A stretch of 64,000 nucleotides of DNA from Candidatus Abyssobacteria bacterium SURF_5 (GTDB taxonomy: Bacteria > Abyssobacteria > SURF-5), in contig QZKU01000068.1 in assembly GCA_003598085.1 (NCBI GenBank), positions 60,173-124,172 of the forward strand, read 5' to 3'. Below the pieces are notes generated by a model. That model searched no databases and was not told the DNA's origin. It worked only from the letters and a program-made list of their open reading frames with translations. Both the position numbers and the translations under genes were made by a program. Shown here one piece after another: positions 18,810 to 32,490 of this stretch. The number at the start of each line of letters is the position of its first letter. Position 1 is the first letter of the stretch.

Positions 18810-19271
18810 TCATACCCTCTCCTGCCGGTAAAGTGTCTTCAGAACATCCATGAACTCGTCGATGTCCTTGAATTGACGGTAAACGGAGGCAAATCGGACA
18901 TAGGCCACTTCGTCAAGATTGCGCAGCTCCTCCATCACCATTGCGCCTACTTTTTCCGAAGACACCTCTTTTTCCATTGAACTGTTAATGCTTTTTTCGA
19001 TCCGGTCTACCAAATCCTCGATCTGCTCGATTCCGACCGGTCTTTTTTCACACGCTTTCAAAATACCGATAACGATTTTGCTACGGTCAAAAGGCTCGCG
19101 CCGGCCGTCCTTCTTTGCAACCATGAGCGGGATTTCTTCTATTCTCTCGTAGGTGGTGAATCGCTTCGTGCAGGAGAGACATTCGCGGCGGCGGCGGATA
19201 AGCTCGCCTTCTTTAATGGTACGCGAATCGACTACCTTATCCTCGGGGTGACCGCAATAGGGACATTTCAT
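18810..19271 (-). CDS. nrdR: Transcriptional repressor NrdR
   Basis: A 153-residue NrdR of standard length. The zinc ribbon has C3-x2-C6 and C31-x2-C34, followed by FTTYERIEE. The ATP-cone domain starts around [16 protein letters not shown]. NrdR senses ATP/dATP and represses ribonucleotide reductase genes by binding paired NrdR boxes. No nrd gene is in the window. It is driven by a perfect-consensus promoter with a set of heptamers at the predicted start point. Confidence 0.97.
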
Positions 19272-19326: not shown

Positions 19327-19355
19327 ATTATACCACGCTACATATAGGGTGTCAA
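19327..19355 (-). promoter_or_regulatory. Perfect sigma70 promoter of nrdR
   Basis: TTGACA (19355-19350), 17-base spacer, TATAAT (19332-19327) on the minus strand; both hexamers match consensus exactly. Confidence 0.8.
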
Positions 19356-22042: not shown

Positions 22043-22952
22043 TGTTTCCGGGCTCGGCTGTTTTCTTTCGTGCAATTACCAGCATGTCAATGAACTTGAA
22101 CTTGATCACAGATCGCTCAAGACCCAGCGCCCGGACAACTCGCTGCGCTGCATTTGAAATTCGAACACTGTAGGGGGCCAGTTTCGTTGCCAGAAACGAC
22201 ATGCTGCACGGCCACACGCCCCGCCGGACATCAATCATTTGAAAGCCGGTTTGCGACAGAATAGTGTTTAAAGTATCCCTCGAAAAAAAGTAGTTGTGTT
22301 CGGCTGCCTTTTTGAAGCCGAACCAATGCGGTCCGAACACCCGCGCGATCAAGCTTCCTGCATCGGGCAACGTCAGAAACAGGTAGCCGTTTGGCTTGAG
22401 TATCCGATTCACCTCGGCCAATTCCGTCGCCGGACTAAACGAGTGCTCGAGCACGTCCCACATGGTGACGATTTCAAATGAGGACGGGGCAAATCCGGCG
22501 CCGGACACAGTGCCGGTATGAACCTGCGCCCGCGCCTGTGCCCGAGCGATATGTGCGGCATGCGCGGAAACCTCCACCCCCTGCACGCTCCATCCCCGGG
22601 AGGCGGCCAACTCAAGGAAATAGCCGTATGCACATCCCACATCCAGCAAAGAAGCAGGCGGTCGAATGAACCGCTGGATGAGGTCGAGGTGATCCGAGAA
22701 GACTTCGCGAAGTCCCGCTGCATGACCGGCATAATCATCATACCCCAGAACCGATGGATTGCTGCTGACGAAATAATCCTCCGAATAAATAGCTGATTGC
22801 TCACCGGCGGGCCGCCGCGGGTTCGTGTAGATCAGTCCACACCGCTGGCAACGCACGATTTGAAACTCGCCGACTCTGCAGTACAGCGTTTCGTTAGCGG
22901 CTCCACAAAGGTTGCATGGGACGTGTTCCAAAACGGAAACTCCTGCAAACAC
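21993..22952 (-). CDS. SAM-dependent methyltransferase with N-terminal zinc ribbon
   Basis: A 319-residue protein. Residues 13-38 hold C13-x2-C16 and C35-x2-C38, a zinc ribbon of the kind found before sugar or lipid-linked methyltransferases. The Rossmann domain has LLDVGCAYGYFLELA (motif I), VQGVEVS, and TMWDVLEHSFSP. The C-terminus is basic. The substrate is unknown; related proteins modify O-antigen or sugar precursors. It is translated ahead of recG with an overlap, and follows an intrinsic terminator at 22953-22992. Confidence 0.85.
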   Translation of the reverse strand: MFAGVSVLEHVPCNLCGAANETLYCRVGEFQIVRCQRCGLIYTNPRRPAGEQSAIYSEDYFVSSNPSVLGYDDYAGHAAGLREVFSDHLDLIQRFIRPPASLLDVGCAYGYFLELAASRGWSVQGVEVSAHAAHIARAQARAQVHTGTVSGAGFAPSSFEIVTMWDVLEHSFSPATELAEVNRILKPNGYLFLTLPDAGSLIARVFGPHWFGFKKAAEHNYFFSRDTLNTILSQTGFQMIDVRRGVWPCSMSFLATKLAPYSVRISNAAQRVVRALGLERSVIKFKFIDMLVIARKKTAEPGNNGKPDQETDTSPTRRS

Positions 22953-22992
22953 TGAAAAAACAAAGTCCGGAGAGCAATAGGCCTTCCGGACT
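22953..22992 (-). terminator. Intrinsic terminator of the coiled-coil membrane-protein pair
   Basis: Stem AGTCCGGA (22992-22985 on the minus strand) pairs perfectly with TCCGGACT (22971-22964), and is followed by TTTGTTTTTTC. It lies 25 bases after the stop of the second gene of the pair. Confidence 0.8.
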
Positions 22993-23017
22993 CATCTCCT
23001 CTTGACTTGCCTGAACC

Positions 23018-23980
23018 TCAGGATGATGAAAGCGCCTCCAGGGCTGTTTCGTTCAGATTCTTTTGGATGGAGTAGTGGTATTGGGCTGCAGCTTCGGATC
23101 CTTCGTAAATCTCCTGGTTCAGCCGTTCTTTCAGCAGATTTGCCCGTGCTCGACTGCTTTCAATGAGATCGAGACTCTGCTGGGCCGATGTTATCAGATA
23201 GTTGTTGCGGGCTTCAACCTGTTTCACGGCTTTCTCAACATTGGCGAGCGCCCCTTTTTGGATAACCAATTCCCGCTTCGTCTTATCCAGTTGCAAAGCC
23301 ACATTTTCAAGGCGCGTCTCGACTGAAGGACGGTCTGCGATTTTTCCTTCAATTTGGGATGTCTGATCCAGCAGGTCCGAGCGCTTCTTCAGTTCATCGC
23401 GTATCGCCGTTATGGCCTCAATATTGCCGACCGCGCGGTAACTCGCCAACTTGCTCTCGAATTGTGCGTTCTCAGCCTGTGTCGCGGCAAGTTGTTCCGC
23501 CGGAGTCGGTCCCTTTGACAGCATTTTCTGAGCTACTTGACCGACCGGCCGAACACCAAAGAAACCCGCAAGCAAACAGACAACGACTATCGCAGCCATT
23601 ACCAGGAGGCTCTTGATCCCGCCTTTCTTGCTGGAAGGAACATATTCCTCGACATCGGGTGGCGGAGAAAGCGGTCCTTCAGGTTCAAAAGTCCCTTCCT
23701 CACCGCCGGCAGTGTCCCCAAGATCCAGCCCCATGCCCTGATCTTCATCAAGTCCGGCTCCGGCAGCCTCGATCCCGACATCTGTTCCGGCTGCCCCTCC
23801 TGAATCGGAGAAACCGCTGTCGCCGGATGCACCGGTTTCGAGGCTAATCGTATCGGCGTCAAAATCCTCCTCAAATCCGGTGTCAGCTCCGAAACTATCC
23901 TCTCCTAAATCTCCGGGAATTTCCTGCGAGACATCCGTCTGCTTCCGTTTTCTGAAAACGCCGAAGATCTTCTCGAACAT
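23018..23980 (-). CDS. Single-pass membrane protein with acidic tail and coiled coil (pair member 2)
   Basis: A 320-residue protein with no family I recognise. The N-terminus MFEKIFGVFRKRK is short, amphipathic and basic. Residues about 14-118 are acidic, Gly/Asp/Glu-rich and low complexity. One transmembrane helix lies at about 124-143. Residues about 155-310 are strongly helical with heptad-like leucines and Glu/Lys alternation, a coiled coil on the far side of the membrane. It is a paralogue by layout of the gene 17 bases upstream, which begins MFEKFSGFFKRF. The two form a bicistronic unit with its own promoter and terminator. Confidence 0.75.
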   Translation of the reverse strand: MFEKIFGVFRKRKQTDVSQEIPGDLGEDSFGADTGFEEDFDADTISLETGASGDSGFSDSGGAAGTDVGIEAAGAGLDEDQGMGLDLGDTAGGEEGTFEPEGPLSPPPDVEEYVPSSKKGGIKSLLVMAAIVVVCLLAGFFGVRPVGQVAQKMLSKGPTPAEQLAATQAENAQFESKLASYRAVGNIEAITAIRDELKKRSDLLDQTSQIEGKIADRPSVETRLENVALQLDKTKRELVIQKGALANVEKAVKQVEARNNYLITSAQQSLDLIESSRARANLLKERLNQEIYEGSEAAAQYHYSIQKNLNETALEALSSS

Positions 23981-23997
23981 AATTCCTCCAACTGGAA

Positions 23998-25086
23998 TCA
24001 GCTTCCTAAGATGTTTGAATCAGATGCCACTGCGCCGGCTGATGGAGCGGGGGCCGTCTGGTCCGGATTCAAATGGGACAGATAGTCCTCGAGGTTTCGA
24101 AGTTCCTCCTGGAACTTTCGATGGTCTTCACCCTCCAGCTCAATGAGGAGGCGCTGAGCTATTTCCGCACGCCCCATTTCGTTTCGGAAACGGGCATATT
24201 CCTGTTCGGTTTGCTGTCGTAATGCTATGACTCGCAGCCTGGCATCTTCTATTCTGGATCTTACGCGGCTGATTTCGCCCCGCGTATCCCCCATTTCCGC
24301 CTCCAAATCGCTGATCTGTTTCAACAGCTCATCATAAGCGGCTTCTCGTTCTCTTGCTTCATTGTAACTCTGCTCCAATTCCTCCACCGGGCCCTGCGAA
24401 TCTCTCGCCTGCGCGATCTGCTGCTGCAAATTCTTCACTTCGGCCGGACTCCCCATTTTCGTAAACTCATCGACTTCGGCTTTCAACTTTACATTTTTTC
24501 GCCTCTCATCAGCCAACTGAGTTTCGACATCAACCGTCGGCTGCTCCGCGCTGGAAAGACCAACCAGTTTCCCCACGTAAGGCCAACCAAAGAACTGGAA
24601 GACTCCTCCCACAATAAGCGCGATAATGCCGGCGGCAATGGTAATTATAAACCTCCGCTTCGGTGAGGCGGGCTTGGCCCCGGCGGCAAATTCTTCTAAC
24701 GGGACCCCTTCTCCTTCCTCGCCGAATGTCGGCTGTTCGGGTTCTTGCGGCAGGCCTTCTTCATATCCTGTCGAGATTCTATCTCCTGAAACCTCATCGC
24801 TCAGCGTCCCTTCGTCGAAGTCGCTTGCGCCTGTGGAAAAATCCATTTCAGCCGAATCCAAGCCGGCGTCGGCGAAAGAGGCGTCCCTCTTTACTGAAAC
24901 TTCGGAATCGACAGGCGCCGTACCAATCTTATCTATTGATTGTTCTAAATCGCTCAGGTCTCCAAAGCTGTCGCCGAGCCCGATGTCCTCGTCAAATCCC
25001 TTGGCGTCCATGATAGTTGTTTCGCCGCTCTGTTTTTTCTGACGCCTGGTGAATCGTTTAAAGAAGCCGGAAAATTTCTCGAACAT
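23998..25086 (-). CDS. Single-pass membrane protein with acidic tail and coiled coil (pair member 1)
   Basis: A 362-residue protein. The start is the ATG at 25086, giving MFEKFSGFFKRFTRRQKK, which matches the N-terminus of its neighbour. The acidic, Asp/Glu/Gly-rich region (about 20-140) contains repeats of the DxGLD and DSFGD type. The transmembrane helix is at about 144-166. Residues about 180-345 form an extended coiled coil (Glu, Lys, Gln, Leu rich). No domain of known function is visible. Such designs occur in membrane scaffolds and in secretion or cell-division accessory proteins; none of these can be assigned. Confidence 0.75.
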   Translation of the reverse strand: MFEKFSGFFKRFTRRQKKQSGETTIMDAKGFDEDIGLGDSFGDLSDLEQSIDKIGTAPVDSEVSVKRDASFADAGLDSAEMDFSTGASDFDEGTLSDEVSGDRISTGYEEGLPQEPEQPTFGEEGEGVPLEEFAAGAKPASPKRRFIITIAAGIIALIVGGVFQFFGWPYVGKLVGLSSAEQPTVDVETQLADERRKNVKLKAEVDEFTKMGSPAEVKNLQQQIAQARDSQGPVEELEQSYNEAREREAAYDELLKQISDLEAEMGDTRGEISRVRSRIEDARLRVIALRQQTEQEYARFRNEMGRAEIAQRLLIELEGEDHRKFQEELRNLEDYLSHLNPDQTAPAPSAGAVASDSNILGS

Positions 25087-25144
25087 GCTCCGTCCCCTTT
25101 TCAAAAATCACTGTATAGTTGGTCGATGCCTGCCTTTAGGGGGG

Positions 25145-25173
25145 ATTATACAGCAAAAAGGATTGCTTGTCAA
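25145..25173 (-). promoter_or_regulatory. Perfect sigma70 promoter of the coiled-coil pair
   Basis: TTGACA (25173-25168), 17-base spacer, TATAAT (25150-25145) on the minus strand. Both hexamers match consensus. The predicted leader is about 50 bases. Confidence 0.8.
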
Positions 25174-26135: not shown

Positions 26136-28190
26136 CTATTTTTCGGCTTCTTCCTTTTCCTTTTTCGCCTGATCAATAATACGTTGCGTTATATGGGCAG
26201 GCACTTCTTCATAGTGAGAGAACTTCATCGTATACGAGCCCCGCCCGCCGGTGATCGACCGAAGCTCGGTGGAAAAATTCAGGATTTCGGCCTCGGGAAC
26301 TGTTACCCGGATGATCTGTCCGTGTGGAGTGGCTTCCATGCCGAGAACCCGGCCGCGCTTCGAGTTGAAAATGCCCGTGATGTCGCCCATGAACTCCTCG
26401 GGCACGAGCACTTCCACTTCCATGAGCGGCTCGAGCAACGCCATTTGCGTTTGTGAAGCCGCCTTTTGAACCGCCTGAGAACCCGCGATCTTAAAGGCCA
26501 ATTCAGACGAATCAACCGAATGCATCATGCCGTCATATAGCCGCACCTTGACGTCTACAACCGGAAATCCGGCCATTATGCCCCGTTCCAGCGCCTCAAC
26601 CACTCCCTTTTCAACGGCGGGCACGTAGTTCTTTGAGATTGATCCTCCAAAAATATCGTCCTCAAATTCAAAGCCTTCTCCGCGTTGCTTCGGAGTGAGT
26701 TCCAACTCGACTTCACCGAATTGACCGCGCCCCCCAGACTGCTTCTTGTGGCGATACCGTGCGGATGCCTTCCCTTTGATCGTTTCCTTGTAAGGAACAC
26801 GAGGAAGCGAAGTTTCGGCCGAAACATTAAACTTGCTTTTCAGCCGGTCCATGATGACGTTCAAATGAAGGTCTCCCATACCCGCGATGATTTCTTCCTT
26901 GGTCTCCTGATTTCGATACACTTTGAAAGTCGGATCCTCATTGGCAATCCGGTTGAGAGCCTGCATGATCCTGTCTTCATCGGCACGGGACTGCGGCTTT
27001 ACCGACAGGCGCACCATCGGTTCCGGGAAATCGATCGGATCGAAGAGAAGGAAGCGGTTGCTGTCGCACATGGTATCGCCCGCTTCCGTAACTTTCAATT
27101 TGGGAATGGCGGCGATTTCACCCGGGCCGACTGAATCAACGGATGTCTGTTCTTTTCCTTGCATGACGAACATGTTTCCGATGCGCTCCTGCACCTGCTT
27201 GTTCGCGTTATAAAAGCCGGTTTCGACGCGAACGGTGCCGGAGAACACCCGGAAGTAAGTCAATTGACCGATATACGGGTCGGTCATGGTCTTAAACACG
27301 CGAGCGGCCAACGGTGCGGACGGGTCCGGCTGAATCTCCTCGTACTCTTGTTTCTTGTTCTTCGCTTTCCTTCGAGGAACGTCAAGCGGCGAGGGGAGGC
27401 AATCCATCGCAAAATCAAGCAATTCCTTTACCCCGATACCCTTCTCGCCGGCTCCGCAGAGAACGGGAACAATAGCGCCCGAAGCGATGCCTTTTTTCAA
27501 GCCTGCTGCGGTCTCTTCCTCGGAGAGAGCGCCTTCCTCAAGATATTTTTCGGTAAGCGCGTCGTCCGTCTCGGCGGCGGCTTCAAGCAGTTTTTCCCGA
27601 TATTCCGAAAATTTTCCCCGGATATCATCCGGCACCTGCGACTCATCCGCCGTCTTCCAGAGACTCACCACTGCCTTCAAGCCCGCCTCCTTGCCGATCG
27701 GTATCGTAAACGGAATACAGGCATCCCCCAAGCTCTCCCGAAGGGAAGCAAGAATCCTGTAGAAGTCGCTGTGCTCCTTGTCGAGCTTGTTCACGAAGAT
27801 GGCGCGAGAGAGATGGTATTTATCGCAGTACCGCCAACTGGTGATCGTGCCCACTTCGATTCCTGCCGTCCCATCCACGAGCATGAGTGCGCTATCGAGT
27901 GCTGCCAGAGAGGCGGCCATTTCACCGACAAAATCCGCGTAACCCGGATTGTCGATGATGTAGATCCGGCCTTTTTGCCAGTCGGTATGCGTCAACTTCA
28001 AGGCAATGGTAAATTTCCTCGTCACTTCCTCATCGAGATAATCTCCAACCGTATTTCCGACATCAACGGACCCCATGCGGCTGGTTTTGCCTGTTTCATT
28101 CAGAATGCGCTCCACGAGGGAAGTCTTGCCTGTTCCCCCGTGGCCGACTAGGCCCACATTGCGGATATCCTTTACATCAAACTTAGCCAT
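26136..28190 (-). CDS. Elongation factor G-like GTPase (EF-G2 type)
   Basis: A 684-residue translational GTPase of the EF-G2 family rather than the housekeeping FusA. G1 is GHGGTGKTS (16-24; canonical EF-G has AHIDAGKTT), G3 is DNPGYADF (canonical DTPGH) and G4 is NKLD. Domains II to V follow, with GMGDLHLNVIMDRL in domain III and SGGRGQFGEVELE in domain IV. EF-G2 proteins bind ribosomes but their role differs from translocation, and it is not settled. Here it is cotranscribed behind a Nudix hydrolase gene by 20 bases. Single-copy status of true EF-G cannot be seen from this window. Confidence 0.92.
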   Translation of the reverse strand: MAKFDVKDIRNVGLVGHGGTGKTSLVERILNETGKTSRMGSVDVGNTVGDYLDEEVTRKFTIALKLTHTDWQKGRIYIIDNPGYADFVGEMAASLAALDSALMLVDGTAGIEVGTITSWRYCDKYHLSRAIFVNKLDKEHSDFYRILASLRESLGDACIPFTIPIGKEAGLKAVVSLWKTADESQVPDDIRGKFSEYREKLLEAAAETDDALTEKYLEEGALSEEETAAGLKKGIASGAIVPVLCGAGEKGIGVKELLDFAMDCLPSPLDVPRRKAKNKKQEYEEIQPDPSAPLAARVFKTMTDPYIGQLTYFRVFSGTVRVETGFYNANKQVQERIGNMFVMQGKEQTSVDSVGPGEIAAIPKLKVTEAGDTMCDSNRFLLFDPIDFPEPMVRLSVKPQSRADEDRIMQALNRIANEDPTFKVYRNQETKEEIIAGMGDLHLNVIMDRLKSKFNVSAETSLPRVPYKETIKGKASARYRHKKQSGGRGQFGEVELELTPKQRGEGFEFEDDIFGGSISKNYVPAVEKGVVEALERGIMAGFPVVDVKVRLYDGMMHSVDSSELAFKIAGSQAVQKAASQTQMALLEPLMEVEVLVPEEFMGDITGIFNSKRGRVLGMEATPHGQIIRVTVPEAEILNFSTELRSITGGRGSYTMKFSHYEEVPAHITQRIIDQAKKEKEEAEK

Positions 28191-29904: not shown

Positions 29905-32490
29905 TTAATCGCCCTTCTCCGTCTCTGCAACATCCGAGACGATTTGCTCTCGCCGCAACATGGTGAAGAGGGTTTGAAACTCCTCAAATACCTCATCGCA
30001 GGTTCCGCGCACCACGCGGCAAGGCGGAAGTGAATTCAAGAAAATTCGCCCGTAATATTTTGCGGCTACTCGCTTATCGAGAATGAGGACGGCGCCGTGG
30101 TCGGTGCGATTGCGGATCAGCCGGCCGAATCCCTGTTTGAATTTGATGACTGCCAGGGGGACTGAAAACTCGATGAACGGATTGCCTCCGCGCCGCTCGA
30201 TATCTTCGGCGCGCGCCTGCACGATGGGGTCGTCGGGCACTCTGAATGGCAGCTTGGCAAGGACCACGCACTCAAGGGATTCGCCCTCCACGTCGACACC
30301 CTCCCAAAAGCTGAGCGTGGCGAAAAGAACCGATGTCGTGTCGCGCCGGAACCGCTCGAGCAATGCTGTCCGGTTATCGTCCCCCTGCCGGAGCGCATTG
30401 ACGCCGAGTTCCTGCTCGAGCCTGGGCGCAAGCTCGCGGTAGGCCCATCCCAGCATCGAAAAAGAGGTGAATAGTAAAAAAGCGCGGCCCTGCGTGATGC
30501 TGAGGCAGCGAAAGATCGTTGACACCAGGACATCGCGAAATCCTGAATCGCCGGGATTGGGTACATCGGTGGGAATGCCCAGCACAGCCTGTTCGGCAAA
30601 ATTGAAAGGCGAAGGCAGGCTAAGGAACCGAATCCTTTCTTCGTCAATCTTATCCAACCCGATGCGTGAAAAAAGAAAATCGAATCGACCCTCGACCGTC
30701 AATGTCGCCGACGTGAGCACAACCGTTGGAAAACATACATACACCTGCTCCGCGAGGGCGGGCCCCACGTCCAGCGGGACAGAATAAAGCCGGACGGCCG
30801 GATTTTTGGCGCGTACTTGGGCTTCAATCCATCGGACATGGTCGATACCCTCACCAAAGATGACATCCTCTACGGTGGAGGCGGCGGAGTCGATGCGGTT
30901 CGCGATCGCATTTATTTCGATCCGGTCATCCGAGAAATCGGTGTCGGAGCCTTTTTCCCGTTCGATTTCCTCGAGCTTTTTGAGCACCAGCGCCAGCCGC
31001 GATACGAATACGCGGAGCTCGCTCAGGAGCTTCTCGACCGCCGGCAGGCAGTCGTGTGACCAGCGCTCATTATCCCGGAGCGACGTCCCGATTCGCATCT
31101 TCAGCTCGCCGTCCGCCCGCTGAGTCAAGTTGTAATTATGAAGGAATTCGAGAAGAGTATCGAACGCGCCATTAATGTAATGCTCAAGATCGTTTTTCCG
31201 GGGAATGATTTCTTCCTGAATGTTGAGGATCAGATCCTCGACGCGCTCCTTTCCGGCTGGCGCACGCATCAGCTTTGCTCTGAGAGCGGAAATCAATCCG
31301 CCTTCCTGCCTGCGCGACTGCGCATGATGGATGCGCCCGAGCAGGCGGAGAAGGCCGAGGCGTGTTATGTGGGAGCCGAAGTATGAGGTCGCCGAATCCT
31401 CGATGTTGTGCGCCTCATCGAGAATCACGCGGCGGTATCCCGGCAGAATAGCCATATCCGAATAACTTTGGGTGGCATTGCGGACGGAAAGATCGGCAAA
31501 CAGCAGATGATGATTGACCACCAGAAGGTCGGCACAAGCCGCTTCGCGGCGGGCGCGATTAACAAAGCAGTCGGCGAAATGGGCACAGTTGACCCGGGCG
31601 CACGAATCGCTCTCGGAATTCACCTTATCCCAGAGATCGGCCTTCGGGACAAAGTTGAGGTCCGACCGGCTGCCGTCGCGCGTCTGTTTCGACCATGCCA
31701 GAATATGCTGGAGCGTCTCGCGCTCATCCGCCGCCGCCAGCAGATCGAACTCGCGTTCGAGCATCGCCGCCTTGCGCAGACAGATGTAGTTACCCCGGCC
31801 CTTCACCAGAGCCGCCTTGCACTCGATATTGAGCGCCGACAAAAGCGCCGGGATGTCTTTCCTCATCAACTGCTCCTGCAAGTTGATCGTGTTGGTGGAA
31901 AGAACGACGCGTTCCTTGTTCCGAACAGCCCAACAGATTGCCGGAATAAGATACGCGAACGTTTTTCCCGTGCCCGTTCCCGCCTCGATCGCGGCGATCC
32001 CGTTCCGGTTGAATGCATCCGCGACCGCGCGCATCATCTCGATCTGCTGCTGCCGGTGCTCATAATTTTTCAGTTTGCGCGCGATCGGACCGCCCGGCCG
32101 GAGCATGTCGGCAAGAGAATCCTCTTGCAGTAACTCCAGCTTCTCGCGCGCAAACGCGGCGACTACTTCATATACCTTGGTAGCGGAATTATTGATGATA
32201 TAAAAGCCGACACCGGCCTGGCCGAGATTGCTTGCAATCGAGATGTCGGCGGACGATGGCGTCAGCCCCCCGCCGGGATGGTTGTGAATAACCACGTCGC
32301 CAGGACGCGCATGCTGAGTGATTGCAGGAACCGCATCCTGATTCCCATGCGCAAGCGGAATGACTTTCACCACCATTCGCTTCTCATTGGTGGCGCCGAT
32401 AAAGAACACTTCATTCCCGCCGGCGGATTCGATCTCGGTCCGGAGAGCTGTAATCGCGTTTTGCGCTATGAGCCTTTTAGCTGACAACAT
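29905..32490 (-). CDS. DinG-like superfamily 2 helicase with N-terminal JAMM/JAB domain
   Basis: An 861-residue fusion. Residues 1-115 are a JAB/MPN fold: Glu27, then H69-N-H71-P72 followed by S79-x2-D82, an intact JAMM zinc-peptidase motif like that of RadC. The rest is a DinG/XPD-type helicase: Walker A GTGTGKT (171-177), four Cys for the Fe-S domain (one at YICLRK, three in CARVNC...DCF), DEAH in ILDEAHNIED, and C-terminal motifs FWEGVDVEGE and QGFGRLIRN. DinG unwinds DNA and R-loops 5' to 3'. The JAMM domain may process a bound protein. First gene of a unit with a zinc-ribbon protein and a nicotinamidase-like hydrolase. Confidence 0.93.
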   Translation of the reverse strand: MLSAKRLIAQNAITALRTEIESAGGNEVFFIGATNEKRMVVKVIPLAHGNQDAVPAITQHARPGDVVIHNHPGGGLTPSSADISIASNLGQAGVGFYIINNSATKVYEVVAAFAREKLELLQEDSLADMLRPGGPIARKLKNYEHRQQQIEMMRAVADAFNRNGIAAIEAGTGTGKTFAYLIPAICWAVRNKERVVLSTNTINLQEQLMRKDIPALLSALNIECKAALVKGRGNYICLRKAAMLEREFDLLAAADERETLQHILAWSKQTRDGSRSDLNFVPKADLWDKVNSESDSCARVNCAHFADCFVNRARREAACADLLVVNHHLLFADLSVRNATQSYSDMAILPGYRRVILDEAHNIEDSATSYFGSHITRLGLLRLLGRIHHAQSRRQEGGLISALRAKLMRAPAGKERVEDLILNIQEEIIPRKNDLEHYINGAFDTLLEFLHNYNLTQRADGELKMRIGTSLRDNERWSHDCLPAVEKLLSELRVFVSRLALVLKKLEEIEREKGSDTDFSDDRIEINAIANRIDSAASTVEDVIFGEGIDHVRWIEAQVRAKNPAVRLYSVPLDVGPALAEQVYVCFPTVVLTSATLTVEGRFDFLFSRIGLDKIDEERIRFLSLPSPFNFAEQAVLGIPTDVPNPGDSGFRDVLVSTIFRCLSITQGRAFLLFTSFSMLGWAYRELAPRLEQELGVNALRQGDDNRTALLERFRRDTTSVLFATLSFWEGVDVEGESLECVVLAKLPFRVPDDPIVQARAEDIERRGGNPFIEFSVPLAVIKFKQGFGRLIRNRTDHGAVLILDKRVAAKYYGRIFLNSLPPCRVVRGTCDEVFEEFQTLFTMLRREQIVSDVAETEKGD

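Follow-up and report, generated by a model that had tools for sequence, protein, structure and literature searches.

Two adjacent genes within the 64 kb window (the whole stretch of Candidatus Abyssobacteria bacterium SURF_5 DNA that was analyzed) make up a real, conserved operon for an orphan protein pair, here called A and B (Table 1). The proteins represent new families with a familiar kind of layout, and their function is one that we infer. In both, a basic N-terminus is followed by about 100-120 acidic, disordered residues, one transmembrane (TM) helix and a long helical region. The preliminary description of this DNA had given the coordinates and this common layout; both were reproduced in the window, and the same layout recurs in the two orthologous A/B pairs of other genera.

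Table 1. Features of the A/B transcription unit, in window coordinates.
Feature	Position	Strand	Details
Sigma-70 promoter	25145-25173	-	TTGACA-17-TATAAT; 12/12 consensus
Gene A	23998-25086	-	362 aa; orthologues 51-52% identical; basic N-terminal helix 3-19, acidic tail ~19-137, TM ~146-164, predicted helices 187-339
Shared tail motif in A	24793-24819	-	FDEGTLSDE, residues 90-98
Gene B	23018-23980	-	320 aa; orthologues 49-51% identical; basic N-terminus, acidic tail ~15-118, TM ~125-143, predicted helices 160-319
Shared tail motif in B	23837-23863	-	FDADTISLE, residues 40-48
Intrinsic terminator after B	22951-22998	-	stem AGTCCGGA...TCCGGACT, then U-rich tail

The two genes are separated by 17 bp on the minus strand, and both are under coding constraint, with third codon positions differing about twice as often as first or second positions. 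The start of A is supported by its orthologues, which open at the same MFE methionine, and by a GGGGA just 5' of it; a TTG 18 bases upstream is a possible alternative. The hydrophobic helices have average Kyte-Doolittle values of 2.36 (A, residues 146-164) and 2.91 (B, residues 125-143). Ahead of them, the tails of both window proteins carry a net charge close to -25, and all six A/B sequences combine one TM helix with a tail charge of -21 to -27. The short MFEK N-terminus had been called amphipathic. Scored over the first 12 residues, this is borne out for A, whose value is reached by 3% of shuffles, whereas for B, at 36%, it finds no support. Of 500 shuffles, 2 reach the heptad periodicity (near 3.5 residues) of A, a strong signal, and 29 reach the weaker one of B.

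By sequence comparison, A and B are homologous to each other and form a duplicated pair, as had been proposed. Profile comparison of A with B gave a probability of 97.3% (E 2.6e-11) and BLASTP gave 2e-7 across most of the length, with the coil adding to both scores; beyond the coil, the proteins agree in the MFEK start, the tail, the TM helix and the helix order. The preliminary description recognized no family, and searches of Pfam, NCBIfam, PHROGs, PADLOC, PDB sequences and Rfam likewise returned only sub-threshold or coiled-coil matches for A and B, with no family match in Pfam, NCBIfam, PHROGs or PDB. No viral relatives were found.

AlphaFold models of A and B were built on three-sequence alignments, and their pTM values of 0.24 and 0.25 are too low for tertiary or quaternary information, so only local helix assignments were used. 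The tails are disordered (pLDDT mostly 30-47), whereas the helices are long and confident. Those after the membrane segment are predicted at residues 187-210, 213-230, 234-319 and 322-339 of A and at 160-184, 187-215 and 220-319 of B, giving a common order of two shorter helices and then one long one. Foldseek found no match to either model at E <= 0.001, and Z scores of up to 8.2 in a further fold comparison of B are within expectation for long helices.

A and B, 49-52% identical, are adjacent and in the same order in two relatives from two further genera of the family, namely Candidatus Abyssobacteria SURF_17 and a groundwater genome whose deposited name is Poribacteria. The family of all three carrier genera is Candidatus Abyssubacteria, and it is by this kinship that the window is placed there. 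The co-occurrence of the pair, which had been named as a check, holds across the family's three genomes, and the N-termini of the homologues proved to be conserved rather than unrelated. N-terminal profiles detected no extra copies within the carrier genomes. Outside the three genera, full profiles found neither protein in 386 whole genomes, and a pattern-based scan found none in about 85,000 species, its pattern being narrower and able to miss distant relatives. The weak profile matches that were inspected (G008, G295 and G106; one in a 986-aa frame of G312 was left out) were rejected as distant relatives; they are other proteins, namely a soluble coil and a LysM-like secreted protein whose neighbor is a coiled-coil lipoprotein. 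Within these searches of 386 genomes and about 85,000 species, the pair is known only from the Candidatus Abyssubacteria lineage. The entry L011 (JACRIR010000198.1), deposited as Candidatus Poribacteria, falls within the family of Abyssobacteria SURF_17 and carries the A/B locus; given this kinship and the common locus, its deposited name is probably wrong.

The pair was originally described as a dedicated transcription unit with a perfect-consensus promoter and an intrinsic terminator, and all three claims hold. The same description called high expression probable, which the consensus promoter would suggest. None of 100 shuffles produced a 12/12 promoter match, and the promoter is kept in the other genera with the same 17-base spacer (11/12 in SURF_17 and 12/12 in G001). 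The terminator hairpin has a folding energy of -18.3 kcal/mol (z -3.2), and a stable hairpin with a U-rich tail follows B in all three genera, with similar hairpins in SURF_17 and G001. Downstream, the order methyltransferase, recG, rsmD, nrdR is kept in all three genomes (these genes were named from sequence, the methyltransferase also by Pfam). On the upstream side, SURF_17 has retained the LysE transporter and EF-G paralogue of the window, but G001 has trpG/trpE-like genes in their place. Because the pair, promoter and terminator stay where the upstream genes differ, the A/B unit is independent of its upstream neighbors. The neighbors are housekeeping genes and give no hint at function.

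Several other features of the region can be recorded here. The only other 12/12 TTGACA-17-TATAAT site in the 64 kb window lies at 19327-19355 (-), upstream of nrdR (18810-19271). The EF-G family paralogue (26136-28190, minus strand), upstream of the pair here and in SURF_17 but not in G001, has GTPase and EF-G domains. An 861-aa DinG-type helicase is encoded at 29905-32490 (-) (Helicase_C_2, E 5.7e-44); its N-terminus contains, by eye, a RadC/JAB-like motif, HNHPGGGLTPSSADISIA, in a part where Pfam gives no match at 1e-5.

The tails had been described as acidic and of low complexity. The acidic character extends over about 100-120 residues, but plain low complexity does not describe tails that contain near-invariant islands. 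Invariant residues cluster in runs of up to 8 in A (P 0.0135) and 11 in B (P 0.00065), compared with shuffled columns. These conserved islands, one of them common to A and B, make the tail more than a charged spacer. This motif, F-D-x-x-T-[IL]-S-x-E, is present in both paralogues in all three genera, its Thr is invariant in six of six proteins, and the +3 position is D in A and L in B. The best ungapped tail-to-tail match, DFDE[GR]T[LI]SDE against [DE]FDADTISLE, is modestly beyond chance (P 0.025). Since the motif is near-invariant and common to both paralogues in all three genera, it suggests a putative docking site for a common cytoplasmic partner. A genome-wide DNA pattern, F-D-x-x-T-[hydrophobic]-S-x-E, matched A and B, as it must by construction, having been designed from them, plus 0-2 others per genome. 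These extra matches are at about the level of a reversed-pattern control, and no clear case of a third protein with the motif emerged.

The explanation that we favor, tentatively, is that A and B are a single-pass inner-membrane pair forming a hetero-oligomeric envelope scaffold, with cytoplasmic tails that recruit a partner. Across the six A/B sequences there are 3-6 K/R residues in the 15 positions before the TM helix and 1-3 after it; five of the six have an excess before the helix, and in the sixth, B of the window, the numbers are equal (3 and 3). The charge of the first 18 residues is +3 to +7. This charge bias, together with the lack of an evident signal peptide, argues for an N-in topology with the rod probably outside the cell. 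Both the layout and the charge bias at the TM helix are consistent with the original proposal of hetero-oligomeric scaffolds that have charged cytoplasmic tails. According to this model, the N-terminus of each protein would be cytoplasmic and the basic helix at its start would lie on the inner leaflet, so that the acidic tail, anchored at either end, would loop out on the cytoplasmic side. This loop would display short conserved motifs, including F-D-x-x-T-[IL]-S-x-E, and dock a common cytoplasmic partner. The membrane helix would come next, and then the C-terminal helices, ending in a single helix of about 90-100 residues; these would be periplasmic coiled-coil rods through which A pairs with B and which extend in the direction of the cell wall.

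Parts of this design are familiar from other bacterial proteins. FtsB/DivIC and FtsL are a heteromeric pair of N-in proteins with a single TM helix and an extracytoplasmic coiled coil; A and B, judged N-in from their charge, would resemble them in all of these respects, but are about three times longer and have large acidic tails. The N-terminal domain of FtsY-type proteins has a basic, membrane-binding start and then an acidic stretch, as A and B are proposed to have; in A and B, however, a TM helix and coil stand in place of an NG GTPase domain (Pfam, NCBIfam). In MapZ (LocZ) of Streptococcus, the N-terminal cytoplasmic domain is disordered, begins with basic residues and has membrane-binding helices, a conserved short FtsZ-binding stretch and phosphorylated Thr residues; the protein also has one TM helix and a C-terminal domain outside the membrane (PMC7055233). 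A and B are like MapZ in the disordered, basic-start N-terminal domain, the conserved short stretch and the single TM helix, a likeness of layout only and one in which their topology is presumed. MapZ differs from A and B in being encoded by one gene, in its extracellular part, which is bi-modular instead of a single long coil, and in having FtsZ as its known partner; the MapZ family was not among the Pfam or NCBIfam matches of A or B.

These likenesses raise the alternative that A and B act, as lineage-specific proteins, in cell division or at the cell pole, being either FtsB/FtsL-like or placement factors of the MapZ type. The N-in, single-TM layout with an extracytoplasmic coil is that of FtsB/FtsL, and among the sub-threshold Pfam matches of A the best is to DivIC/FtsB (PF04977; E 0.0021). 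At 18.3 bits, this match falls below the gathering cut-off of 28.9, and it is confined to one of the six A/B sequences, B and the orthologues being without a match. In addition, all three genomes have elsewhere a proper DivIC/FtsB-type gene (an open frame of 109-120 aa, 63-69 bits) as well as a second DivIC-type match of 26-32 bits. The proper genes rule out A as an FtsB replacement, and a division role seems improbable overall. The reverse topology, with the coil in the cytoplasm and the acidic tail outside, could be argued from the coil's sub-threshold matches, mostly to cytoplasmic SMC/Rad50-type coils, though any coiled coil can give these. It would require the basic N-terminus and the acidic tail of 100 residues to be exported with no evident signal peptide, and it runs against the distribution of K/R residues described above; we consider it very unlikely.

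Two further readings concern what the tails do. If A and B were membrane-surface structural proteins with no specific cytoplasmic partner, the islands would reflect slow divergence, and with about 50% overall identity and three sequences per protein the conservation is indeed of limited resolution. Nevertheless, the islands cluster more than in shuffled columns, and one island is found in A as well as in B, which leaves this reading unlikely, if worth keeping in mind. A phospho-Thr switch is a more specific form of the envelope-scaffold explanation: a Ser/Thr kinase would phosphorylate the motif Thr and an FHA-domain protein would bind it, bringing FHA signaling to the envelope. The abundance of both components makes such a switch possible, with 14-21 FHA and 14-20 protein-kinase matches per genome (G000, G001 and G002) and with FHA domains apparently fused, by eye, to GGDEF, histidine-kinase, sigma-54 activator and cyclase-like domains. 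The D (A) and L (B) at +3 from the invariant Thr resemble the FHA ligand preferences of yeast Rad53. On the other hand, such numbers are a general feature of these genomes, neither an FHA nor a kinase gene was seen next to A/B, and Thr is not enriched among the conserved tail residues (6/14 vs 77/213, p 0.41), so that we give the switch only a slim chance. Slighter still is the chance that A and B are a lineage-specific two-component organizer, in which paired periplasmic rods, twin acidic loops and a duplicated FHA-type adaptor docking motif would make up a kinase-controlled scaffold; if true, such a scaffold would be one not seen in other bacteria.

The importance of the pair is limited for now, because its function is known by inference only. 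A and B nonetheless add two new protein families to a lineage with little-known envelope biology. If the envelope-scaffold explanation is correct, this uncultured deep-subsurface lineage would have a dedicated scaffold with its own docking motif, and the small, bounded operon would offer a system for testing how disordered tails and periplasmic rods cooperate.
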